23,561 nt of DNA from a virus. The notes under the pieces were generated by a model, which searched no databases, was not told the origin of the DNA, and saw nothing but the letters and a program-made list of their open reading frames with translations. Positions 1,404 to 22,853 of the stretch are shown piece by piece. How positions within the stretch are numbered: the first letter of the stretch is position 1; every line of letters starts with the position of its first letter. The stretch is from positions 1 through 23,561 of the IMG/VR virus record IMGVR_UViG_3300044846_000186; one strand, written 5' to 3'. The translations under genes and the position numbers were made by a program.

Positions 1404-1772
1404 ATGCCTAATCCACAAAATATAGAGCCATACAAAATGCAGAAGGGGGAAACATTGAACCCAAACGGCAGACCTCGTAAGTATGTAAGCCTACTTAAAG
1501 AGCAGGGATATAAACTTGCGGAGATAAACGACACCATACAAGCTATGATGTCAATGGACTTAGAGGAACTTAAAACAGTATGGGATAACCCGAAGGCAAC
1601 AATACTTGAAAAGACAATAGCAGCAGCTATGCGGAAGAGCTTGGAGAAGGGCAGCCTTTATAGTTTAGAAACTTTGCTTACCCGTGTATATGGTAAGCCA
1701 AAAGAACAGATGGACATACAAACAGATAACAGAATAGAGATAGTATTTGTAGACGGCAAGACAATTCTTTAA
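1404..1772 (+). CDS. Putative terminase small subunit (DUF5681-like N-terminus)
   Basis: This 122-residue protein lies directly before the large terminase, with its stop and the next start overlapping by one base (TAATG). The N-terminal segment KGETLNPNGRPRK (residues 14-26) resembles the 'GNPxGRPK' signature of DUF5681-type phage proteins, which I associate with packaging loci. The rest is mostly helical, ending with a GKPKEQMDIQTD segment and a short beta-like tail. Small terminases bind the packaging start site on DNA and load the large subunit. That role is inferred from position and size, not from a diagnostic motif. The ATG at 1404 follows the methyltransferase stop by about 20 nt. Confidence 0.6.
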   Translation: MPNPQNIEPYKMQKGETLNPNGRPRKYVSLLKEQGYKLAEINDTIQAMMSMDLEELKTVWDNPKATILEKTIAAAMRKSLEKGSLYSLETLLTRVYGKPKEQMDIQTDNRIEIVFVDGKTIL

Positions 1773-2920
1773 TGCGGATAGAACTACCGAACGGACATAT
1801 AAATCAAAAGAAGATACTTGACTGCGAAGCCAGGTACATAGTTGTTATGTGTGGGAGAAGGTTCGGCAAATCGGAACTAAGCCAGATCAAATGTATTACA
1901 ACCGCAATCAAAGGCGGTCAGGTTGCTTACATAACCCCTACCTATAAATTGGCTAAGGTATTTTTTGAGAAGTTATGCAATAGCCTTCCATTCCCTAATA
2001 ACAAATCGGACTTAAATATTAGCTTCCCGAATGGTGGCAAAGTTGAATTCTTTACAGGGGAACGATTGGATAACTTAAGAGGGCGAAAGTTTAACCTGGT
2101 AATAGTAGACGAGGCTTCCTTTATACCTAACTTAGAAGATGGGTGGCTTAACTCAATAAGACCTACCTTAACTGACTATAAGGGTAAGGCTATATTCTTA
2201 AGCACCCCTAAAGGTAAAAACTACTTCTTTAGTTTGTTTAGCAAAGCCGAACCCGATTGGCAAAGCTTTAAATTCACTACATACGATAACCCTTACATAG
2301 ACCCGAATGAGATAGACGATGCAAGGAAGCAACTGCCAGAGGTTGTGTTTGAGCAAGAGTATATGGCAAACCCTGCGGAGAACGCAGCAAACCCATTTGG
2401 TAGCCAACATATTCGCAAGTGCTTACACCCAGTAACAACAATGCCGGTAGTAGCTTATGGTATTGACCTTGCGAAGTCGGTCGATTGGACAGTTATCGTA
2501 GGCTTAGACGAAGACGGGAATGTGGCTTATTTTGACCGCTTTCAAATGGATTGGCATAATACCAAGCAAACAATCCTTAGGCTGCCTAAATGCCCTATCC
2601 TTGTCGATTCTACGGGGGTTGGCGACCCGATACTCGAAGACCTGCAAAGAGAAGGGGTAATGATACAAGGCTTAAAGTTCACAAGTTCAAGTAAGCAACA
2701 ACTTATGGAAGGCTTACAGGCTGCAATACATCAAGGTAAAATAGGCTATCCTGAAGGGATAATTAGCCAGGAGTTAGAAGTATTTGAGTATATGTATACG
2801 GCAACGGGGGTAAAGTACTCCGCACCTTCAGGCTTTCACGATGATGCCGTAATGGCTTTGGCATTGGCTTGGCAGAACTTCAGCCTTAAACGTGGCACGG
2901 GTAGGTATGCCTTCCTATAA
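1772..2920 (+). CDS. terL: Terminase large subunit (ATPase and nuclease)
   Basis: This is the DNA-packaging motor that drives genome entry into the prohead and cuts the concatemer. The N-terminal ATPase shows Walker A GRRFGKS (28-34), Walker B LVIVDEA (109-115) with the catalytic glutamate, and the coupling motif STPKG (144-148). The C-terminal RNase H-like nuclease shows three acidic positions: D232 in YGIDLAKS, D279 in LVDSTG, and D357/D358 in FHDDAVMA. At 382 residues it is short for a TerL (often 400-600) but contains both domains in full. It starts on the ATG that overlaps the upstream stop codon. No terminator-like hairpin follows; a promoter-like sequence starts 25 nt after the stop. 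Confidence 0.95.
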   Translation: MRIELPNGHINQKKILDCEARYIVVMCGRRFGKSELSQIKCITTAIKGGQVAYITPTYKLAKVFFEKLCNSLPFPNNKSDLNISFPNGGKVEFFTGERLDNLRGRKFNLVIVDEASFIPNLEDGWLNSIRPTLTDYKGKAIFLSTPKGKNYFFSLFSKAEPDWQSFKFTTYDNPYIDPNEIDDARKQLPEVVFEQEYMANPAENAANPFGSQHIRKCLHPVTTMPVVAYGIDLAKSVDWTVIVGLDEDGNVAYFDRFQMDWHNTKQTILRLPKCPILVDSTGVGDPILEDLQREGVMIQGLKFTSSSKQQLMEGLQAAIHQGKIGYPEGIISQELEVFEYMYTATGVKYSAPSGFHDDAVMALALAWQNFSLKRGTGRYAFL

Positions 2921-4150: not shown

Positions 4151-4825
4151 ATGACTTGGAACGAATTAACAGTTTGGCAGTACCAACAGATTTACCCAAT
4201 AGTTACAAAGCCTGAGAAGGATTGGACTACCTTAGACGTGGAAAGTAAGTTAGTAGGTATAATCTTTAACCTTACCGACACCCAGGTAGATAGCCTAAGC
4301 GTAAAGCAGTTTAACAAATTAAAGGTAAACTTAAGCTTCTTAGACGACAAAATAGAAGGTAAGCCGGTTAAGTACACCGAAGTAAACGGCAAACGTTACA
4401 AGTTTATCTATGATGTGCAACAAATCAAAGCAGCCAGATACATAGAAACTAAAGTATTTAGCACCGACTTAGTTGGTAACCTACACAAGTTAGCAGCCTC
4501 AATGGTTATGCCTCAGCGCAAAACTTGGTACGGCAAATGGAAAAATGAGAAGTACGATGCAGCTAAGCATAGCCAATATGCAGAAGATTTACAAGGGGCA
4601 AATTTTATGCACGTTTACCAATCCATTGTTTTTTTTTATCAAGTTTACAGAAATTGGATAGAAGTTTCTCAGGGTTATTTGATACAAGAGATGATAGCGA
4701 AGGGTCTGGATACGGAGACGGCACTAAAGGTGGTTCAAACTTTATGCGAGACTTTGGATGGCAATATTGTACCAAATCTGTTGCCGACCACGAAAATATC
4801 ACAGTTGACCAAAGCTATGAGTTAA
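4151..4825 (+). CDS. Tail assembly chaperone, zero-frame product (gpG-like)
   Basis: This 224-residue protein is the short form of a probable lambda gpG/gpGT-type chaperone, which holds the tape measure protein in solution while the tail tube forms. It opens MTWNELTVWQYQQIYPI and is mostly helical with aromatic-rich stretches. After the T-run at 4629-4637 it continues in frame 0 for another 62 residues (NWIEVSQGYLIQEMIAKG..., ending QLTKAMS), which look like ordinary amphipathic helices. Evidence for the chaperone role is the overlapping -1 frame, the heptamer and its place in the tail module. No strong sequence signature is visible to me. The tape measure gene is unusually distant, 4 kb downstream. 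Confidence 0.6.
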   Translation: MTWNELTVWQYQQIYPIVTKPEKDWTTLDVESKLVGIIFNLTDTQVDSLSVKQFNKLKVNLSFLDDKIEGKPVKYTEVNGKRYKFIYDVQQIKAARYIETKVFSTDLVGNLHKLAASMVMPQRKTWYGKWKNEKYDAAKHSQYAEDLQGANFMHVYQSIVFFYQVYRNWIEVSQGYLIQEMIAKGLDTETALKVVQTLCETLDGNIVPNLLPTTKISQLTKAMS

Positions 4826-4908
4826 CCACAATACAATTCTTAAATACACTATCCTATCTAAAGGCTAAGGCTGATTATGACAAGGAGCAACATAGGAAAT
4901 TAAAGTAG
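4151..4908 (+). CDS. Tail assembly chaperone, -1 frameshift product (gpGT-like)
   Basis: The long form is predicted to use frame 0 for 162 codons (to 4636) and then the -1 frame to the TAG at 4906-4908, giving about 252 residues. The added segment begins LSSLQKLDRSFSGLF, passes through a glycine/serine/aspartate-rich linker (EGSGYGDGTKGGSN) and ends in a helical tail (YELTTIQFLNTLSYLKAKAD). The -1 frame has no separate ATG near its beginning, it is open across the whole overlap and it extends 83 nt past the zero-frame stop. In lambda-like phages the shift ratio sets the gpG:gpGT balance. A one-base sequencing error in the T9 run is the main alternative. Confidence 0.6.
4630..4636 (+). promoter_or_regulatory. 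Slippery heptamer T TTT TTT for -1 frameshifting
   Basis: Within a run of nine T (4629-4637), the frame-0 codons are GTT TTT TTT TAT, so the heptamer T-TTT-TTT is aligned for simultaneous -1 slippage of both tRNAs. The only downstream structure I see is a weak hairpin, AGAAA (4649-4653) with TTTCT (4665-4669), 12 nt after the heptamer. Slippage would join frame 0 to the open -1 frame. Confidence 0.6.
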
Positions 4909-4973: not shown

Positions 4974-5651
4974 GTGAGTATATCTAAAGCACAAATACAA
5001 GCGTTGAGGGAAGGCTTTATACAAAGCTTAGGCGGTAGCTTTAATAAATACAAGCCAGGAGAACTTCCCGTTTTAGAAGATACTTTAGCTTTATATGGTA
5101 AAGCGTTTAACGATAAGATAGTAGAAATACTTGATAAGGATAATATTACAAGTTCTGGTAGATTAGCAGAACCGGCTTTACCAATCATTACTAAATTCGG
5201 AACAGGTTACATTTTAAGCTTAGGTTACGAACCAGGAAGCGAAGCATCTAAATACTATGACTTTGTAAACAAAGGGGTAAAAGGTACAAAGAACGAGAAA
5301 GCAGACGGCAAAACACCTTATGCTTTTAAGGGTAATAAAAAAGCAGTTCCGGTCAGTTCAATAGAAAAATGGCTTGGATATAACAAGTTAAAATCTGTAT
5401 CAGTAAAAAAGTACACAAAGCTTGGAACGGAAAGCAAAGCAATAGATAGCAAGAAGTCCTTAGCCTTTTTAATTGCTCGTAGTATACATAGGAAAGGTTT
5501 AAAATCTACACGCTACTTTGATAGAGCGGTAGCACAAATATTTAATAAAGAATTTATTGAGAATATAGCACTTGCAGTAGGGGGCGATATTCAAATACAA
5601 ATAAAGCAAACAATTAACGAAAGTAAGAATGGCAATAACAGTAACAAGTAG
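4974..5651 (+). CDS. Putative tail-completion / neck protein (HK97 gp10-like)
   Basis: This is a 225-residue basic protein with a GTG start. The C-terminal part reads SLAFLIARSIHRKGLKSTRYFDRAV (about residues 163-187), the pattern 'I-x-R-KG-x-KxTxFFxxA' seen in gp10-like or Mu gpG-like tail-completion proteins. The upstream part is rich in glycine and lysine. These proteins join the finished tail to the head or terminate the tube. The assignment rests on this motif and on tail-module context. The GTG lies 5 nt after a TATATTTA box, downstream of a terminator. The gene overlaps the next by 23 nt. Confidence 0.55.
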   Translation: MSISKAQIQALREGFIQSLGGSFNKYKPGELPVLEDTLALYGKAFNDKIVEILDKDNITSSGRLAEPALPIITKFGTGYILSLGYEPGSEASKYYDFVNKGVKGTKNEKADGKTPYAFKGNKKAVPVSSIEKWLGYNKLKSVSVKKYTKLGTESKAIDSKKSLAFLIARSIHRKGLKSTRYFDRAVAQIFNKEFIENIALAVGGDIQIQIKQTINESKNGNNSNK

Positions 5652-6843
5652 TCCTGCACCTTATTCGTCTATGCACGATAACCTGTGGTTCGTATCAAGT
5701 TCTACTAATAGCGGAACTACAAACTTTAAGTTTGTTTATGATGTCTACATAAACGGAAGTCAAATAATTAGGTCTAAGGTATTCCCTGCTCCAAGTGCAG
5801 AAGGTAGCTACGGGGTGTTTAACGCATCTCCAATGGTTAGAAGTTTTGTTACTAACTATTTTGAGCCTTCGGGCAATTCAATACTTGTAGCATCAAACGA
5901 TAAAATCAAAGTAGATTATCAACTAAGAATAGGCGAAGAGGTAAGCGGTGTAACGACTACAAACTTAGCGTCTGGCAACTTCTCTGCTTACAACTTTGTA
6001 CCGCCATTGTTTGCAGACGTATTTTTAACAAAAAACAAAACACCTTTAGTGTTATCGGACTATTACGATAATTTACTATTGGAAAACTTTACCGATGACT
6101 TCTTAACGGAACGTGATACGGATAACATAACGCTTGAATACGGAGATAACTTTTACATTACGTTTTTACGAATAGCAACGGGCGGTTATTCAGCTTGGGT
6201 TGAAGTAGTCGGACAAAATGAAGCAGTTACTAATACAGTATCGGGTAACATAACCTTGAACGGACAATTTAATATGTTTAATCTACAAGCAGGGCATATA
6301 AACGATTGGGCATCTGGAACTATAATCAACGAGAATACTTACGGCTATAATTTCTATTTAAAAAGAGGAATAGCAAAGACAAGGGTAATTAAGATAAGAC
6401 ATAAGTGCTATCCTAAATACCAACAATTTAACTTAGAGTTTCTAAATAGGCTTGGCGGTTGGGACACAAAGAAGTTCGCCCTTGTTAATAGAAGGTCGAG
6501 CGAATATCAAAGAGCATCTTACAGGCGTAGCGATTGGCAACTTGTAGGTGGGCAAATGACAAATATAGATGGATATAACAGATATAACGAAACAACTTTC
6601 AACTATGCTATTCAGCATAAAGATAAATATAAGCTTATTAGTGATTGGGTTAGTGAACAAGACTATTCTTGGTTGGCTCAGCTTGTATCGAGTCCTATTG
6701 TATATATGGAGGTTCTTGGTGCTTACTTCCCTGTTACCATAAGCACAAGCAATTATGAGTATAAGTTAGAAAGTGCGGATAAACTATTTAACTTTGAAAT
6801 TGAAGTAGAAGTAGGTAAGTATTTAACAAGCCAATTTAGATAA
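5629..6843 (+). CDS. Putative distal tail / baseplate protein
   Basis: This 404-residue protein, opening MAITVTSSPAPYSSMHDNLW, is predominantly beta-strand with few charged helices, as in tail-tip or distal-tail proteins. The segment QFNLEFLNRLGGWDTKKFAL (near residues 265-285) resembles a conserved block that I associate with Bacteroidota phage tail proteins. It has no signal peptide or catalytic motif. Its ATG lies inside the end of the previous gene, and its stop overlaps the next ATG in TAATG form. It probably works with the following 684-residue protein at the tail tip. The exact role is inferred from size, composition and position. Confidence 0.5.
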   Translation: MAITVTSSPAPYSSMHDNLWFVSSSTNSGTTNFKFVYDVYINGSQIIRSKVFPAPSAEGSYGVFNASPMVRSFVTNYFEPSGNSILVASNDKIKVDYQLRIGEEVSGVTTTNLASGNFSAYNFVPPLFADVFLTKNKTPLVLSDYYDNLLLENFTDDFLTERDTDNITLEYGDNFYITFLRIATGGYSAWVEVVGQNEAVTNTVSGNITLNGQFNMFNLQAGHINDWASGTIINENTYGYNFYLKRGIAKTRVIKIRHKCYPKYQQFNLEFLNRLGGWDTKKFALVNRRSSEYQRASYRRSDWQLVGGQMTNIDGYNRYNETTFNYAIQHKDKYKLISDWVSEQDYSWLAQLVSSPIVYMEVLGAYFPVTISTSNYEYKLESADKLFNFEIEVEVGKYLTSQFR

Positions 6844-8897
6844 TGATTAGTACTGAAATATACATCGAAGAACAGAAGATTGATTTATTGCAGGATATAT
6901 CTACCGAGTTTACTTATGCCATTGACGATGTAAGTGAGTTCGGTAGTCGCAATACATCTTATAGCAAAACAATAAGCGTTCCAGGAACGGCAAACAATAA
7001 CCTTATCTTTGGGTACATCTTCGAACTTAACAATGCTAACTTTACCGATAATACCTTACCAAACGTAGGGTATAACTTTAATGTAACTAAACAAGCTAAC
7101 TGCAAAATCTTTATCGACAAGGTGCAGATATTTAAAGGCACTTTACGAATATTGGAAATAGTTATAGACAAAGAAACTATTGAATACCAATGTAGTGTTG
7201 TAGGGGAACTTGGTGGGTTTATTAATCAGTTAGGAAATAAGCGTTTAGAAGATTTAGATTTTAGTGCTTACAACCATACTTATAGCGTAGCTAATATTAG
7301 TAATAGTTGGAATAATGCAGGGGGTTCTGGTTATTACTATCCGCTTATAGATTACGGAAACGTAAGTACAGGACAATACGGAGTAATTAAAAAGGACTTC
7401 CAATATACAACGTTTAGACCTGCTTTGTATGTTAAGGAGTATATGCAAAAGATATTTGCAGGAACAAATTATACTTTTAGTTGCCCGTTCTTTGATACGG
7501 CTTTATTTAAGAGGCTTATTATACCGCATAACCAAACAAACATTTCTACTCTAAATAATACAAGCCTTAACGCAGCAGCCAAGTTAATTACTATAAATAC
7601 AAACCTTAGTTCTATTGTAGAATATACAATGGTAACGGCAGGTAGCTTTACACTTGACGGCTTAGGGCAGTTATTTACTTATACAAGTGGGGTAACTATT
7701 ACAACAGATATACAAGTTTTATTAAGAGGAAACGTAACATTTTACAATCTACCTTTGCCAAACTTTTCTGTTGTACTTAAAAAGAATAACGTACAAATAG
7801 GAAGACAAGATTTTGATGCAAGTGTTAGTAGCTTTTTTAATTGCGAGTTTACTGCAAGTGGGATAACCTTTGCTAACACCGACTATATGCAAGTTGAAAT
7901 AGTAGCTAACGGGGTTATCCTTGATATTACATTAGGAGAACTTGGTGTAACTACAAGCACACCTACGCAAGTCCAGGTAAACTTAGGAGAAACAATTAAG
8001 GTTAACGATATTATTCCTAAAGGTATATTTCAAACAGATTTCTTTTTAAGCATTGTTAAGATGTTTAACCTTTACGTTTATGAGAATAAGTTTAACGACA
8101 AGGAATTGGTTATTAGTCCGTATGTGGACTTTTATCCTGAGGTATCAGCTACGGCAGAAGATTGGACTAACAAAGTAGATCGTGCAAAGCCTATAAGCAT
8201 AAAGCCAATGAGTGAGGTTAATGCTCGTTACTATAACTATAAGTTTAAAGCGGATAATGATTTCTACGGAGAAAACTATCGCAAGAAGTACACCGAAGGT
8301 TATGGAGATTTTATTTACGATACTGAATTTGACTTTGTAAAAGAAACCGACACTTTAGAAGTTATATTTGCTGCATCTGTATTATTCCAACAAAACGGAG
8401 AGGACAAAGTATTCCCTGCTATCTATAAAAAGTCAAACACAAATAGTGCAGAGGATAGAATGGAGAGCATTATTCGTATAATGCAGACCAAGAAAATAAC
8501 AGGTGTTGGGAGTTGGAAAATAATGGATACAACATCAACTTTAGGAACTTTTACAAGCTATGGTTATGCAGGACACTTAGACGACCCTATTAACCCTACT
8601 AATGACATAAACTTTGGCGCACCTAAAGAACTACAATTTAACCCTAATAGCTACCCAAGTACAAACGTATTTAATGCCTTTCATAGTCCTTACCTTGCAG
8701 AAATAACAAGCAAGGATAGTAAGCTATTAACTTGTTTTGGTTTATTGGATATTGTAGACATTTTTAATTTAGATTTTAGTAAGTATGTATTTATAGACGG
8801 GGTATTGTTTAGGCTTAACAAAGTCGAGAACTTTAACCCAATGGAATACAACACTACTAAATTATCATTTCTTAAAGTAATAGAAACATCATACTAA
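6843..8897 (+). CDS. Putative tail tip / hub structural protein
   Basis: This large 684-residue protein has an N-terminus (IDLLQDISTEFTYAIDDVSEFGSRNTSYSKTI, about residues 13-45) that resembles the start of Bacteroidota phage tail proteins whose 'RNTSYSKTI' block is followed by a 'PGT-x-NN' turn. The middle is long beta-rich sequence with many Asn, Thr and Ser. The C-terminus (TSKDSKLLTCFGLLDIVDIFNLDF) is more compact. A Tal/hub-like role is inferred. It is coupled on both sides by one-base TAATG overlaps, to the 404-residue tail protein and to the tape measure, which supports a common tail-tip complex. No hydrolase motif is recognised. Confidence 0.5.
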   Translation: MISTEIYIEEQKIDLLQDISTEFTYAIDDVSEFGSRNTSYSKTISVPGTANNNLIFGYIFELNNANFTDNTLPNVGYNFNVTKQANCKIFIDKVQIFKGTLRILEIVIDKETIEYQCSVVGELGGFINQLGNKRLEDLDFSAYNHTYSVANISNSWNNAGGSGYYYPLIDYGNVSTGQYGVIKKDFQYTTFRPALYVKEYMQKIFAGTNYTFSCPFFDTALFKRLIIPHNQTNISTLNNTSLNAAAKLITINTNLSSIVEYTMVTAGSFTLDGLGQLFTYTSGVTITTDIQVLLRGNVTFYNLPLPNFSVVLKKNNVQIGRQDFDASVSSFFNCEFTASGITFANTDYMQVEIVANGVILDITLGELGVTTSTPTQVQVNLGETIKVNDIIPKGIFQTDFFLSIVKMFNLYVYENKFNDKELVISPYVDFYPEVSATAEDWTNKVDRAKPISIKPMSEVNARYYNYKFKADNDFYGENYRKKYTEGYGDFIYDTEFDFVKETDTLEVIFAASVLFQQNGEDKVFPAIYKKSNTNSAEDRMESIIRIMQTKKITGVGSWKIMDTTSTLGTFTSYGYAGHLDDPINPTNDINFGAPKELQFNPNSYPSTNVFNAFHSPYLAEITSKDSKLLTCFGLLDIVDIFNLDFSKYVFIDGVLFRLNKVENFNPMEYNTTKLSFLKVIETSY

Positions 8898-10639
8898 TGG
8901 CACAAGAGAACGTAGGTATAAATATACAGGTTGGCGGTAACCAAGACCAAGCATTAGGCTCGTTAAAAGCGCAGTTAAGAGAGGCAACGGCTGAGGTAAC
9001 AAAACTATCTGAGCAGTTTGGAGCAAGTAGCAAGGAAGCCGTAAACGCAGCAAAGAGGGCAGCAGAACTTAAAGACCAAATCGGAGATGCTAAAAGTTTA
9101 ATTGATGCCTTTAATCCAGATGCTAAGTTTAAAGCCTTAACTGCTTCGCTTAGTGGTGTAGCCGGTGGCTTTAGTGCTTTACAAGGTGCAACTGCTTTAT
9201 TTGGTAAAGAGAATGAGGACTTACAGAAAACTTTACTTAAAGTAAATTCTGCTATGGCTTTATCACAAGGCTTACAAGCAGTAGGGGAAAGTATTGATAG
9301 CTTTAAGCAATTAGGTACAGTTATTAAAACGCAGGTAGTAAGTGCGTTCTCTACTTTAAGAGGTGCTTTAATCGCAACGGGAATTGGTGCTTTAGCAATC
9401 GGAATTGGGTTAGTGGCTGCTAACTTTGACAAAGTAAAGAAGGCGGTACTAAGTTTAGTTCCAGGACTTGCACAAGTTGGAACGTTCTTTAGTAGCATCA
9501 TTACAAAAGTAACTGATTTTGTAGGGGTAACATCACAAGCAGAACGTGCTTTGGCTTCTTTAGAAAAAACAACTAAGCGAGGTAATGAAGGTATTGAGGC
9601 AAGAATTAAAGTACTTACTGCACAAGGCGGTAAGGAAAAAGAGATATACGCACTTAGCAAACAACAAGGCGAAAACGAACTTACTTTTTTAAGGGCAAAG
9701 CTAAAAACTAAGGAAGGTTTAAACGAAGAGGAACTTAAGAAGTTTAGGAGTTTAAAAACAGAACAAGCGGTTTTAGATGCCCAAGAACAAAAGAGGCAAC
9801 AAGATGTATTAAAAGAAAATGCTAAAGCAGGAGCAGATGCAAGTAAAGAAGCAGATGCAAGACGTAAAGCTGAAGCAGAAAAAAGAAAAGCAGAAGAGGA
9901 AAGGCTAAGCGAGGAATTATTAAAGACACAACAAGACCGAAGGAAGCTACTTGCAGAAGATAACTTAGTAACGCAAGACCAAGTTGCTCAGGATAAAAAA
10001 GATGCAGAAGAGAAGGCTAAAAAAGAGCAAGAAGCAATAGATAATGAAAGGATAGCAAACCAAAAAGCAGTTATGTCTACTATGACTAACTTCGCTTTAC
10101 AAGGTATACAAGAGCAACAAAACTTAGCAAAGACACAAGCTGAAATTGACAGGATTGCTACCGAAAACAAGTTAAAAGAACTTGAATTACAAAAGCAAGG
10201 TGCTATGGCTGCCCTTGATGCAGTTGCAACTATTATAGATCAAAATAGCGTTGCAGGTAAAGCTATCGCAGTTGCTAAGGCGGTTATGTCTACTTACGAA
10301 GGTGCAACTAAAGCGTTAGGTGCTTATCCCCCACCATTCGGAGCGATTGCAGCAGCAGCCACAGTTGCAGCAGGATTGGCAAACGTTAAAAGGATTGTTT
10401 CTACAAATATACCTTCAGCAAGAGGAACTGGAAGCGTAGGGGGTGGAGCAAGTGCGCCAAGCATTAATTCAGCAGCACCAATAACACCGCCACAACCTCA
10501 AGCAGCGACTACTAATTTAAGTAGCCAGACAATTAACGCAATAGGCAACCAAGCCATTAGAAGCTATGTTGTAGAAAGCGATGTAACAAGTAACCAACAA
10601 AGAATTGCAGCTATTCAGCAAAGAGCAAGGTTCGGTTAA
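8897..10639 (+). CDS. Tail tape measure protein
   Basis: This 580-residue protein sets tail length and later helps DNA entry. It shows the usual layout: a helical N-terminus, a hydrophobic glycine/alanine-rich segment (about 156-176: GALIATGIGALAIGIGLVAA), a long charged coiled coil (about 210-440, rich in A, E, K and Q), a second alanine-rich hydrophobic stretch near 475-495, and a low-complexity C-terminal tail. The block NSVAGKAIAVAKAVMSTYEGATKAL followed by PPPFGAIAAAAT is typical of Bacteroidota tape measures. At about 0.15 nm per residue the tail would be near 85-90 nm. It starts on the ATG of a TAATG overlap, and its stop lies within the first repeated 36-nt element. Confidence 0.85.
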   Translation: MAQENVGINIQVGGNQDQALGSLKAQLREATAEVTKLSEQFGASSKEAVNAAKRAAELKDQIGDAKSLIDAFNPDAKFKALTASLSGVAGGFSALQGATALFGKENEDLQKTLLKVNSAMALSQGLQAVGESIDSFKQLGTVIKTQVVSAFSTLRGALIATGIGALAIGIGLVAANFDKVKKAVLSLVPGLAQVGTFFSSIITKVTDFVGVTSQAERALASLEKTTKRGNEGIEARIKVLTAQGGKEKEIYALSKQQGENELTFLRAKLKTKEGLNEEELKKFRSLKTEQAVLDAQEQKRQQDVLKENAKAGADASKEADARRKAEAEKRKAEEERLSEELLKTQQDRRKLLAEDNLVTQDQVAQDKKDAEEKAKKEQEAIDNERIANQKAVMSTMTNFALQGIQEQQNLAKTQAEIDRIATENKLKELELQKQGAMAALDAVATIIDQNSVAGKAIAVAKAVMSTYEGATKALGAYPPPFGAIAAAATVAAGLANVKRIVSTNIPSARGTGSVGGGASAPSINSAAPITPPQPQAATTNLSSQTINAIGNQAIRSYVVESDVTSNQQRIAAIQQRARFG

Positions 10640-12910: not shown

Positions 12911-13432
12911 ATGCCTTGCGCTTTAACTCAAAATTATACCTTAGATTGTAAAGACAGTTTAGGTGGTATTACTGAGGTTTATTTCATAGCAGCAGCAGAT
13001 GTTACTTCTACAACAGAAGCAAGTGGTGTAATTACCGCTTTAGTAAAAGCATCTGGCAAGAGGTTCTATAAGTACGAACTTGTAAAAGGCACTTCTCAAT
13101 TAGTTGAGAATGTTAATGCAAACGTACAAAACGGAACTATCTTTTATGCTCCTGAATTGACCATAGTATTAAACAAATTACAAGCTAACACAAGAAACGA
13201 AATTTTATTGTTGGCTCAAAACACTTTAGTAGCAGTTGCAAAAGATAATAACAATGCATTCTGGTACTTAGGTAAAACAAGAGGCTTAGACCTTACCGCA
13301 GGTAACTCTGGTACAGGTACGGCTGAAGGCGATAGAAGTGGTTACACTTTGACCTTTACAGGTGCAGAAGCTGCCCTTGCTCCAGCAGTTAATTCAACTG
13401 TTGCTGCAGCTTTATTGACACCGGGAACTTAG
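12911..13432 (+). CDS. Putative tail tube / abundant virion protein
   Basis: This 173-residue, mostly beta-strand protein has a central block FYKYELVKGTSQLVENVNAN, then NGTIFYAPELTIVLNKL, and a C-terminal DRSGYTLTFTGAEAALAP. Together they resemble a family often found next to the capsid gene in Bacteroidota phages and prophages. 'GYTLTFTG' near the end is like the late strand of tail-tube folds. It stands alone between two strong terminators, so it is probably expressed separately and at high level, fitting a tube or decoration subunit. The tube role is a guess based on fold pattern and expression context. The leader is A/T-rich (TTTAATTCAAACAAT). Confidence 0.5.
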   Translation: MPCALTQNYTLDCKDSLGGITEVYFIAAADVTSTTEASGVITALVKASGKRFYKYELVKGTSQLVENVNANVQNGTIFYAPELTIVLNKLQANTRNEILLLAQNTLVAVAKDNNNAFWYLGKTRGLDLTAGNSGTGTAEGDRSGYTLTFTGAEAALAPAVNSTVAAALLTPGT

Positions 13433-13524: not shown

Positions 13525-13899
13525 GTGATAAGATTAATTAAGGGGCAAACCCAAAACATAATACTTACCTTGACTGAAAAGCAGCTTTTAACAAGCCCGA
13601 ACTATCTATTCATTTTTGAGAATAGAAGCACTAACACGGAAATAAAGTTTGTAAGGCTTAACAATACAGACATAAGTGCTTACAAGGAACGTTACAATGA
13701 GTTTAGCATTGTAGTTAATAGCTTTTTTAATACGGCTTTAAACGGGCAATACACCTACACAATCTACGAACAAGCAAGTACATCAAACCTAAACCCGACA
13801 GGCTTAAACCTGCTTGAAAGCGGCATTATGGAACTTGAGGGTACGACTATATCATTCACAGAATACGAAACAACAAGCACATTCACAATTAGACAATAA
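13525..13899 (+). CDS. Conserved phage protein of unknown function
   Basis: This 124-residue protein starts at a GTG (MIRLIKGQTQNIILTLTEKQL). It is beta-rich, with FIFENRSTNTEIKFVRL, YNEFSIVV and GQYTYTIYEQ, and resembles an immunoglobulin-like or small virion domain that recurs in Bacteroidota phages. I cannot name a function. There is no signal peptide or membrane segment. The GTG lies 5 nt after a TATATTTA box downstream of a terminator, so this gene heads the portal transcription unit. Its last base is the first base of the portal ATG (TAATG). Confidence 0.65.
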   Translation: MIRLIKGQTQNIILTLTEKQLLTSPNYLFIFENRSTNTEIKFVRLNNTDISAYKERYNEFSIVVNSFFNTALNGQYTYTIYEQASTSNLNPTGLNLLESGIMELEGTTISFTEYETTSTFTIRQ

Positions 13900-15875
13900 T
13901 GGAAATACAAGTATTGACATTTGCGGAAGCAAAGCAACCGGAATATAAAGAGAAAAAAGGCGAAGGTTATATGCAGTATGGTCAAAACAATGACTATCCG
14001 CAATACTTATTAGACCTATTTAACAAATCAGCAAAGCATAACGCAATTATTCGTGGCAAGGTTAACTACATTGTTGGCAATGGTTGGGCAGGAGAAGAAG
14101 CTTTAGTTAAAAAAGTAAATAGAGAGGAAAGCCTTAACGACCTTACTAAAAAGGTTGCTTTAGATTTAGAACTATTTGGTGGTGCTTATATCCAAGTTAT
14201 TTGGAGTGTTATGGGTGGTCAAGTAGCGGAGTTGTGGCATTGTGATTATACAAAGATTAGAACCAATAAAGACAATACTCAATTCTGGTACAAAGACGAT
14301 TGGAAAGCTACACGCAACCAAGAAAAGGCTGAAATTTACAATGCGTTTAACCCTGCTAACCCACAAGGTGTGCAGATACTTTATGTAAAGGAGTATCGCC
14401 CAGGAATGAACGTTTATAGCCTTCCTGGTTATTTTGGTGCGCTTAACTACATCGAAAGTGATGTTGAAGTTAGTAAGCACGTTTTAGGAAATGCTCAAAC
14501 AGGGTTTTCTGCAAGTAAACTTATTACTTTACCAAACGGAGAACCAAGCCCAGAGGAAAAGCGACTTGTTAGCAGACAGTTCGACAATATGTACACGGGT
14601 GCAGACGGCAAGAAGTATTTACTTGCGTTTGTAAACGATTTAACCCGTAAGCCTATTGTTGATGATTTGGGTGCAAGTGATCTAACTAAAGAGGACTTTG
14701 GTAGAGTAGACGAGTTAATACAAACTAACATATTTTCTGGACATCAAATTACCTCTGCAGAACTTTTTGGTATTGCCGTTCCTGGTCAATTAGGAAACAG
14801 ACAACAGATGCGCGATAGCTACGAAATATTCAATAACACTTATGTACGCTATAAACAAATGCAAATCGAAGGCGTATTTAATATGTTAGGTCAATATGCA
14901 GGTGTAACGGAAGAGTTAAAACTTCAACCGGTAGACCCTATTGGAATTGACTTTAGCGAAAATGTTATTTTACAAGTAGCACCAAAAGAGTGGATATTAG
15001 AGAAGTTAGGAATTGACCCTACACAATACGGAATAGTTGCAGAAACCGAGCAGCCAATGGCAGCAAGTCCTTTAAGTGTGAACGAGCATATTAAAGGATT
15101 GAAAGGTAGGGAATGGCAAAATATGCAGCGTATTATTAGAGATTTTAACAAAGGCAAGATAACAAGGGAACAAGCAAGTTCTATGTTAAAAGGTGGATAT
15201 GCTTTAAGTGATGACGAAGTTTCTACTTGGTTAGGTGCTGAGGAATTAGAATTTAACGAAACTGATTTTCAGGTTTTCTTTGAGTTCGGAGAAGATAGAA
15301 ATGCCTACGAAGTATTTAAAAGCAAGTCAAGATTTAACGATGATACCGACTTTGAAATGTTTGCAGATGTATCGCAGTTACAATCTAACATATTGGACTT
15401 AATTGTTAAAGACAAGCGTATTACTCCAGAGGTAATTGCTGACACTTTAAAAGAAGATGTAGGTGCGGTAAAGCGTGTTATTGATCTATTAATTGAGAAG
15501 GGGTTTATTAAGACAAACGAAGTAAAGCAAGGTAGAGGTATTGATAGTAACGTTATTATAGAAAGGCAATTAACTGCACCTATTGGACAGATTGTTGAAG
15601 CTATAAAGCCACAAACTACGCAAATATTAATTCGTTACTCTTACGAGTGGAAAGCAGGTTTTAACGATAGCGATTTAGATACAAGCAGACCTTTTTGTAA
15701 GTACTTAGTAACCGCTAACAAGTTTTATAGCCGTAGTGAGATAGAGCAAATGAGTGCAAGGCTTGGTTATTCTGTATGGGATAGACGAGGCGGTTGGTAT
15801 ACTAAGCCGGGAACAAACACACATTCTCCAAGTTGCAGACACGAGTGGCGCAGCAATATCGTGAAAAGAAAATAA
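13899..15875 (+). CDS. Portal protein with C-terminal winged-helix and Cys/His extensions
   Basis: The 658-residue product begins with a portal-like region (residues 1 to about 400) showing AIIRGKVNYIVGNGW, LFGGAYIQVIW and the stem-like YVRYKQMQIEGVFNMLGQY. The portal is the dodecameric ring through which DNA passes. Residues about 490-545 (LQSNILDLIVKDKRIT through KRVIDLLIEKGFIKTNE) look like a winged helix. The last 80 residues (RYSYEW at 579, PFCKY with C600, GGWYTKPGTN, C646-R-H648) resemble the C-terminal Cys/His domain of Mu gpF/SPP1 gp7-type minor head proteins. It is longer than usual portals (about 400-550). It overlaps both neighbours by one base and lies after the capsid gene, contrary to the usual order. 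Confidence 0.75.
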   Translation: MEIQVLTFAEAKQPEYKEKKGEGYMQYGQNNDYPQYLLDLFNKSAKHNAIIRGKVNYIVGNGWAGEEALVKKVNREESLNDLTKKVALDLELFGGAYIQVIWSVMGGQVAELWHCDYTKIRTNKDNTQFWYKDDWKATRNQEKAEIYNAFNPANPQGVQILYVKEYRPGMNVYSLPGYFGALNYIESDVEVSKHVLGNAQTGFSASKLITLPNGEPSPEEKRLVSRQFDNMYTGADGKKYLLAFVNDLTRKPIVDDLGASDLTKEDFGRVDELIQTNIFSGHQITSAELFGIAVPGQLGNRQQMRDSYEIFNNTYVRYKQMQIEGVFNMLGQYAGVTEELKLQPVDPIGIDFSENVILQVAPKEWILEKLGIDPTQYGIVAETEQPMAASPLSVNEHIKGLKGREWQNMQRIIRDFNKGKITREQASSMLKGGYALSDDEVSTWLGAEELEFNETDFQVFFEFGEDRNAYEVFKSKSRFNDDTDFEMFADVSQLQSNILDLIVKDKRITPEVIADTLKEDVGAVKRVIDLLIEKGFIKTNEVKQGRGIDSNVIIERQLTAPIGQIVEAIKPQTTQILIRYSYEWKAGFNDSDLDTSRPFCKYLVTANKFYSRSEIEQMSARLGYSVWDRRGGWYTKPGTNTHSPSCRHEWRSNIVKRK

Positions 15876-16405
15876 TGGCATACGTTTATAGACATATTAG
15901 GCTTGATAAAAACGAACCTTTTTACATAGGAATAGGCTCTGATGAAACTTACAATAGAGCTTATTCTATAAAAAGAAGAAATCTTTTATGGAATAGTATA
16001 GTTAGTAGAAGCAAATATGAAGTAGAAATAATAATGGACAATTTGACTTGGGAACAAGCTTGTGAAAAAGAGAAAGAGTTTATATCTATATATGGTAGAA
16101 AAGATTTGAAAACAGGCATATTAACAAATATGACAAGTGGTGGAGAAGGTGTTATCGATAGAGTTGTTACAAAAGAATTTAGAGAAAAATGTATGATTTC
16201 TAAATTAGGAGAACTAAACCCAAGGTATAATAAAAAACCTTGGAATTTTGGAAAAAAATTAGAGAAGTGGAATCATACACAAGAAGTAATTGAAAAAATG
16301 AAAAAGCCAAAAAATAAAACTAATTGTCCTCATTGTAATTTATATGGTGCAGTTAATCAATTAAAAAGATGGCATTTCGATAATTGTAAGTTTAAAACAA
16401 ATTAA
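15875..16405 (+). CDS. GIY-YIG-like homing endonuclease with zinc finger
   Basis: The 176-residue product starts at the ATG of a TAATG overlap with the portal; an in-frame TTG at 15833 lies inside the portal gene and is less likely. The N-terminus VYRHIR...PFYIGIG is a GIY-YIG-type nuclease core, with E79 or E81 in CEKEKEF as a candidate metal-binding residue. A NUMOD3-like DNA-binding segment follows (SKLGELNPRYNKKPWNFGKK). At the C-terminus CPHCNLYGAVNQLKRWHFDNC is a zinc-finger pattern (C-x2-C-x14-H-x3-C) common in phage homing nucleases. It is freestanding, more A/T-rich than its neighbours, and probably a selfish insertion between portal and adaptor genes. Confidence 0.8.
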   Translation: MAYVYRHIRLDKNEPFYIGIGSDETYNRAYSIKRRNLLWNSIVSRSKYEVEIIMDNLTWEQACEKEKEFISIYGRKDLKTGILTNMTSGGEGVIDRVVTKEFREKCMISKLGELNPRYNKKPWNFGKKLEKWNHTQEVIEKMKKPKNKTNCPHCNLYGAVNQLKRWHFDNCKFKTN

Positions 16406-21929: not shown

Positions 21930-22202
21930 ATGGCAAAAGCAGCAAAAAGCGTAAGCGTATCAGCTAACCCGTTACCGATTTCATTCAAGGAGTTTAGCAA
22001 GAACCCTGTCGTTGGTATGCTATTTTTATGTATCTGCGGTATTAGTTACTTGTATATCGACAATGCAAAGCGTAACGAAAAGCAAGACGAAAAGATAGGC
22101 AGCTTGTATGAAATGGTGCGTAAGAGCGATAGCAGTAACGCAGCAAGTACGGCTCGTCTGGAAATGGCAGTAGACCTAAAGGCTCTAAAAAAGTTTAAGT
22201 AA
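21930..22202 (+). CDS. Putative one-helix membrane protein (i-spanin-like)
   Basis: This 90-residue protein has an N-terminal cytoplasmic part with lysines (MAKAAKSVSVSANP), a membrane helix near 27-43 (VVGMLFLCICGISYLYI) and a charged helical C-terminus (KRNEKQDEKIGSLYEMVRKSD) likely to project into the periplasm as a short coiled coil. That is the topology of an inner-membrane spanin such as Rz, but it is short, and a class-III holin-like role cannot be excluded. Its stop overlaps the ATG of the following lipoprotein (TAATG), as expected for an i-spanin/o-spanin pair. Confidence 0.5.
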   Translation: MAKAAKSVSVSANPLPISFKEFSKNPVVGMLFLCICGISYLYIDNAKRNEKQDEKIGSLYEMVRKSDSSNAASTARLEMAVDLKALKKFK

Positions 22203-22492
22203 TGCGCTATTTAGTATTGATTGCTTTGATAGGTTGCGGAACTAAGACCGATAACCAGATTATAGAGTTGCAAGACAAAGTAAAGCAAAGCCAAGTGCAG
22301 AGCGAACAAGTGCAGGGTGTGGCTTCTCAGGATAACAAGAAGGTAATTACTAAGACAGTGAAAACAATAGTTACCTTAAAACAAGAACTAAAAGAATTAA
22401 AAACGGAACTAAATGAAGTTAAGGCTAAATTGGACTCCGCTAATTCTGTTGATACTAATAGCACCAAGTTCCAGTTACGCCCAATACGTTAA
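22202..22492 (+). CDS. Putative small lipoprotein (o-spanin-like)
   Basis: This 96-residue protein has a lipobox LIGC with the Cys at position 12 after a very short hydrophobic signal (MRYLVLIALIGC). The rest is a lysine/glutamine-rich helix (IIELQDKVKQSQVQSEQVQG, then VTLKQELKELKTELNEVKAKL), likely a coiled coil in the periplasm. This fits an outer-membrane spanin or an accessory lipoprotein. It is coupled to the upstream membrane protein by TAATG, and the next gene starts inside it in another frame (22413, an 80-nt overlap). Confidence 0.5.
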   Translation: MRYLVLIALIGCGTKTDNQIIELQDKVKQSQVQSEQVQGVASQDNKKVITKTVKTIVTLKQELKELKTELNEVKAKLDSANSVDTNSTKFQLRPIR

Positions 22493-22853
22493 GAAGATAG
22501 GCGGCGAGGATAAGATTGTTATTAGCCGTACAGAAGGCGAAAAGATTAACAACTCATTTGATAGCCTAACTAATTTAGTAAGCTACCAAAACACACGAAT
22601 AGATAGCTTAATTAAAGCTAACATTAAGACAAGGGATAGCCTTCGCATTGACTTACTTACCCTTAAAGATACCCTTACTCAACGCAATAAAATATCAAAC
22701 GATACGTTAAACGACTATCGTAATAGATACTATAAAAACATAGCAATTTACGAGCAGTATGAAAAAGCGGTGCAGTTTGAAATAAAACTACATAGGCTTA
22801 ATTCAGTTTTGTTTGCTATGCTAACATTCTTTTTATACTCACAAATAAATTAA
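22413..22853 (+). CDS. Secreted coiled-coil membrane protein of the lysis cassette
   Basis: This 146-residue protein opens with a signal-peptide-like MKLRLNWTPLILLILIAPSSSYAQ (possible cleavage after SYA, residue 23). A charged coiled-coil-like region (DSLTNLVSYQNTRIDSLIKAN, then RIDLLTLKDTLTQRNKI) follows, and then a C-terminal hydrophobic helix (about 127-143: LNSVLFAMLTFFLYS). The start ATG lies in the upstream lipoprotein gene and reads its DNA in the +1 frame. Similar signal-coiled-coil-helix proteins commonly stand before endolysins in Bacteroidota phages. A spanin or lysis-accessory role is inferred, and no enzymatic motif is visible. Confidence 0.6.
   Translation: MKLRLNWTPLILLILIAPSSSYAQYVKKIGGEDKIVISRTEGEKINNSFDSLTNLVSYQNTRIDSLIKANIKTRDSLRIDLLTLKDTLTQRNKISNDTLNDYRNRYYKNIAIYEQYEKAVQFEIKLHRLNSVLFAMLTFFLYSQIN

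Follow-up and report, generated by a model that had tools for sequence, protein, structure and literature searches.

A gene in which two overlapping reading frames meet at a run of nine Ts (T9) was found in a viral sequence from IMG/VR, 23,561 bases long, which was analysed whole and is called the window here. Comparison with related sequences indicated that a programmed net -1 frame switch, which would make products like lambda gpG and gpGT, is almost certainly real. We accepted the switch because T9 and both frames were conserved among relatives and the variable codon position flipped across the site. The G/GT architecture and the position between the terminase and the tail module suggested that the gene is very probably a tail assembly chaperone. 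As a whole explanation, a G/GT chaperone with a minority -1 switch at T9, for which we leaned slightly to slippage of RNA polymerase, was given marginally better than an even chance. The features of the window are listed in Table 1.

Table 1. Frame-switch gene and neighbouring genes in the window.
Feature	Positions	Strand	Remarks
Terminase large subunit	1772..2920	+	upstream, same module; tblastn against TerL genes annotated in phage isolates
Zero-frame gene, putative G-like product	4151..4825	+	ATG 4151, 224 aa; N-terminal part common to the longer product
T9 run, proposed slippage site	4629..4637	+	read G|TT TTT TTT T|AT
In-frame heptamer T_TTT_TTT, candidate ribosomal site inside T9	4630..4636	+	codons GTT TTT TTT TAT
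-1 frame, putative T-like domain	4636..4908	+	90 aa, LSSLQK...RKLK, stop 4906-4908; would be reached after a net -1 shift
Dual-coding overlap	4637..4825	+	~62 codons; no codon position free (diversity in close relatives)
Tail-module gene	4974..5651	+	homologue of P12024S_42, BLASTP E 6e-7
Tail-module gene	5629..6843	+	homologue of P12024S_44, BLASTP E 8e-7
Tail-module gene	6843..8897	+	homologue of P12024S_45, BLASTP E 1e-4
Tape measure protein	8897..10639	+	presumed chaperone client; PHROG tail tape measure 1.7e-8; BLASTP E 9e-11 to P12024S_49
Candidate tail tube protein	12911..13432	+	follows the probable major capsid gene directly; named by its position only

An earlier note on this DNA had located the T run, the zero-frame stop and the heptamer in the zero frame, and its coordinates were correct. 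The -1 frame started at the run with TTA TCA AGT (LSSLQK...). It was open to its own stop as the note had said, extending 83 bases beyond the zero-frame stop. Dinucleotide shuffles of both strands gave an expectation of 4.1 ± 2.7 T9 runs in this AT-rich window, and one was present. The run alone was unremarkable. What exceeded chance was its exact conservation in homologues together with the codon-phase flip.

The close set consisted of 80 IMG/VR loci whose encoded proteins were 80-94% identical to the window protein. In 80/80 of these closest relatives the run had exactly nine Ts and its register was unchanged, and both frames were open except where contigs ended within the gene. Diversity was computed for each codon position among 65 distinct sequences of close relatives. 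Upstream of the run, the values at zero-frame positions 1, 2 and 3 were 0.070, 0.053 and 0.306. Past the zero-frame stop they were 0.040, 0.306 and 0.032, the free position being position 3 of the -1 frame. Within the overlap, values of 0.092, 0.144 and 0.134 left a free position in neither frame. The freedom of the wobble position was likewise lost in the overlap of a second clade, falling from 0.225 to 0.03. A pattern of this kind marks the junction of two coding frames at the run. Both downstream frames had been described as protein-like, and both were found to be constrained in the close set and in the second clade.

The same arrangement was found in Nonlabens (Persicivirga) phage P12024S (JQ823122). 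At the corresponding place, gene 38 of this phage reads CTT TTT TTT TAT CAT, with T9 in the same register. Its -1 ORF has 86 aa, and the database annotates only the last part of it, as the separate gene 39. Genes 38 and 39, annotated as two hypothetical genes, correspond to PHROGs 32199 and 38404, both of unknown function. Fold comparison from a poor model was what first pointed to P12024S, and the relationship was then borne out by sequence. In profile-profile comparison, the zero-frame protein of the window was homologous to P12024S_38 (probability 96.7%, E 3.9e-10). The -1 domains of the window and its distant relatives, which are short, matched weakly on their own (probability 23%, E 9e-4), and they were collinear with common L, F, W and L columns.

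A profile scan of genome contigs with the first, narrow alignment gave no match. Searches from P12024S and its relatives added many loci, with at least 583 candidates in the last search, and the MAG contigs with homologues included Bacteroidota. The run was nine or ten Ts long and never shorter in 237 non-redundant homologues, which formed 26 clusters at 60% identity. Where the FFY motif was present, T9 stood in 226 of 234 non-redundant genes and T10 in the rest, and the FFL, FFF and FFW variants also carried T9 or T10. Where complete, the -1 ORF was 80-92 aa long in 234 homologues. Alignment of related phages thus showed the heptamer and the -1 frame conserved in close and distant relatives. 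Two candidates were left out of the family. A 28% match in a 635-kb phage was dropped, its gene being of different length and context. Flavobacterium phage 6H, a relative by fold, was not counted; it is without T9. Its gene N375_gp10 (L407 10044-10927, minus strand) ends TGT TTT TTC TAT and is followed by a T-like -1 ORF, which is interrupted by TAG just past the candidate site.

We then considered the level at which the slip occurs. Slippage of RNA polymerase on T9 was given about an even chance, with a slight lean to it over the ribosome. The broader reading, that polymerase slippage on T9 or T10 and not the ribosome sets the ratio of short to long product throughout a large family, probably mostly phages of Bacteroidota, was placed just short of even. 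In bacteria, runs of nine A or T are known to make RNA polymerase slip (PMC1088944, PMC5009743), and where transcriptional slippage occurs, coding DNA avoids them (PMC1088944). Avoidance of T runs was measured by shuffling synonymous codons within genes in 353-360 kb of neighbouring coding sequence from 66-67 related loci, and in 636 kb in a more redundant set. The ratio of observed to expected runs in coding DNA was about 0.5 for seven Ts, 0.35-0.4 for eight and 0 for nine or more. Outside the chaperone genes, 5-7 runs of at least nine Ts were expected in the coding sequence of these loci and none was seen. Runs of exactly seven Ts were at 0.48 of expectation in frame and 0.51 out of frame; the larger set gave 0.58 and 0.33. 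Depletion of A_AAA_AAG, in contrast, was mainly in frame (0.68 compared to 0.95 out of frame, larger set). Since T7 was depleted no less out of frame than in frame, unlike A_AAA_AAG, the avoidance of T runs follows length, not frame.

The site itself gave a similar picture. Among the 237 homologues the run was never seven or eight Ts, though seven suffice for the heptamer. TTC was used at neither of the two F codons of the site, compared with 17% at a matched invariant F codon. At the second F codon, TTC would be synonymous in both frames (the -1 frame would read CTA, Leu), yet it was absent. The length-based avoidance and the absent TTC favoured a run-length requirement at the site, although they are not proof of it. 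T-run avoidance can also stem from DNA replication slippage.

Ribosomal -1 frameshifting at U_UUU_UUU, in which both tRNA-Phe, peptidyl and aminoacyl, would pair anew one base back with no strong stimulator, was a serious competitor, whose chance we put somewhat below even. The heptamer, which fits the X_XXY_YYZ pattern of -1 frameshift sites, was in frame in every homologue examined, and a heptamer with conserved flanking codons (V/L/I before FF and Y after) can yield T9, so that a run of always at least nine Ts was not decisive. To our knowledge, the chaperone switches in the literature are all described as ribosomal. These include the lambda G/GT switch (PMC5009743) and two HK97-like chaperone genes, for which ribosomal frameshifting was measured at 6-7% (PMC3711429). 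However, in E. coli ribosomes shift less readily on U_UUU_UUU than on A_AAA_AAG (PMC5009743). The synonymous T_TTT_TTC never took its place at the site, and elsewhere the in-frame T_TTT_TTT was avoided no more than T7 out of frame. The downstream hairpin had been called weak from the window. Conserved downstream structure was indeed absent in the family, with a mean folding z of 0.16 for 45 nt and -0.28 for 75 nt in about 41 sequences. A downstream stimulatory structure is common, not obligatory, in -1 ribosomal frameshifting. No conserved upstream signal was evident either, as third positions upstream of the run varied among the 237 homologues. The earlier note had proposed frameshifting on the heptamer. 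The in-frame T_TTT_TTT and the net -1 change stood; the ribosomal level was less firm, in that transcriptional slippage explains the data at least as well.

With slippage by RNA polymerase, one extra U would be added at U9; with slippage by the ribosome, two tRNA-Phe would slip on U_UUU_UUU. Both routes would give the same main protein, and polymerase and ribosome may act together. The majority product would be the 224-aa zero-frame protein. A minority switch at T9 would give a 252-aa protein (...SIVFF-LSSLQK...) with a different 90-aa C-terminal domain. We infer this ratio, with the short form major and the long form minor. If the lambda model carries over, the tape measure protein would be coated by the domain common to both forms, and tail tube subunits would be brought in by the T-like domain of the minor one. 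A chaperone of this type would also be expected to be absent from the virion.

Tail-chaperone identity was examined through the neighbourhood and the fold. The gene order terminase, frame-switch gene, tail genes and tape measure was common to the window, P12024S and a distant locus (L258). The gene had been remarked to lie 4 kb from the tape measure rather than adjacent to it, and this gap was normal for the lineage, given the same gene order in P12024S and L258. The product of the candidate tail tube gene matched P12024S_03 (BLASTP E 1e-24) and a PHROG of unknown function. No significant match to an annotated chaperone family was obtained for the window's products in PHROGs and Pfam. Profile searches of the PDB with these products gave no match, and neither did Rfam. 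The narrow alignment had given an AlphaFold model of low quality (pLDDT 53), and the BFVD matches of this model served as leads only. The broad alignment yielded a model of a family member (pLDDT 78) that was good for the G domain, showing a compact domain to approximately the slip site and low confidence beyond. This drop in confidence would fit a dispensable zero-frame tail that is replaced by the T-like domain. With the broad-alignment model, Foldseek gave no match in the PDB at E <= 0.001. VIA-align matches lay mostly on long C-terminal helices, and no PDB fold stood out. BFVD matches to annotated chaperones were weak.

These results allowed for a real frame switch in some other structural or regulatory protein pair, which we considered unlikely. 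It would account for the lack of a profile or fold match to annotated chaperones, the best annotated fold match, the chaperone of ctCpR1, being insignificant (E 0.22). However, the position between the terminase and the tail module, the G/GT layout and the consistent occurrence in tailed phages that carry a tape measure gene argued for a tail chaperone. The earlier proposal of short and long tail-chaperone-like proteins made through a net -1 change, as in lambda gpG/gpGT, was strongly supported by conservation and constraint. As to the name of tail chaperone, architecture and position fitted it, but no annotated chaperone family was matched.

It was very unlikely that the two frames are separate genes, the -1 ORF being translated from its own start and the T run being incidental. 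The annotation starts P12024S_39 at an ATG overlapping the stop upstream of it. In the window, the -1 frame had been said to have no suitable start of its own; TTG 4654 and ATG 4744 are in fact present in it, and their suitability is a matter of judgement. However, starting at the T run, the -1 frame was free of stops and conserved in sequence (LSS.QKLDR; LSFR.RL), upstream of these candidate starts. In addition, a run of at least nine Ts was kept across 26 clusters, which would be needless under independent initiation. A frameshifted or mis-assembled single gene with a true run of eight or ten Ts, conceivable in that homopolymers are error-prone in some sequencing methods, was effectively excluded because the same nine Ts recurred in 80 other metagenome contigs and in the genome of the isolate P12024S; the zero frame also stayed open and constrained downstream of the run, and no homologue among 405 loci had the two frames fused. 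Thus neither eight or ten Ts at this site nor a continuous fused homologue, the findings named beforehand as contrary to the switch, was encountered.

We compared the gene with known systems. Like lambda gpG/gpGT, it would make a short protein and a minor -1 fusion with a common N-terminus, from a tail-module gene and by a net -1 shift. In contrast to lambda, the slip site is T9 and not lambda's site, the overlap is long, with its dual-coding stretch, and the gene lies shortly after the terminase, whereas lambda's is next to the tape measure. There was no detectable sequence similarity between the two, and the level of slippage proposed here is tentative. P12024S 38/39 was alike in its homologous zero-frame protein, its T9 in the same register, its -1 T-like ORF and its homologous downstream tail genes and tape measure, but its zero-frame tail was shorter than that of the window. 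In Shigella mxiE (PMC1088944), as proposed here, an extra nucleotide at a U run would fuse two overlapping ORFs into a longer product. However, mxiE is a bacterial regulator gene with demonstrated slippage, whereas the present gene is a putative phage chaperone for which slippage is proposed.

A search of open-access papers found no account of such a switch in Bacteroidota phages. We know of no earlier tail chaperone switch at the level of transcription, and slippage by RNA polymerase, if true here, would be the first. The chaperone gene and its switch were previously unannotated, the P12024S genes being hypothetical and their PHROG families without function. Hundreds of environmental phage genomes become annotatable through the finding. 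The family is a natural setting for testing if RNA polymerase can take over a tail-assembly switch from the ribosome. In addition, a dual-coding stretch of about 62 codons is unusually long for a DNA phage.

Other features were observed in the window. By eye, the ORF at 218-1384 resembled a fusion between a ParB-type nuclease domain and a DNA methyltransferase. The portal protein (13899-15875, 658 aa) had a C-terminal extension and a further tail and may be a fusion, and its residues 495-538 gave a weak winged-helix match (Pfam HTH_24, below the cut-off). The portal gene overlaps at its 3' end with an ORF at 15833-16405 that resembled by eye a GIY-YIG homing endonuclease. Before a lysozyme-like gene, two small overlapping ORFs at 22202-22853 with signal- or lipoprotein-like starts were possibly a spanin pair, as judged by eye.
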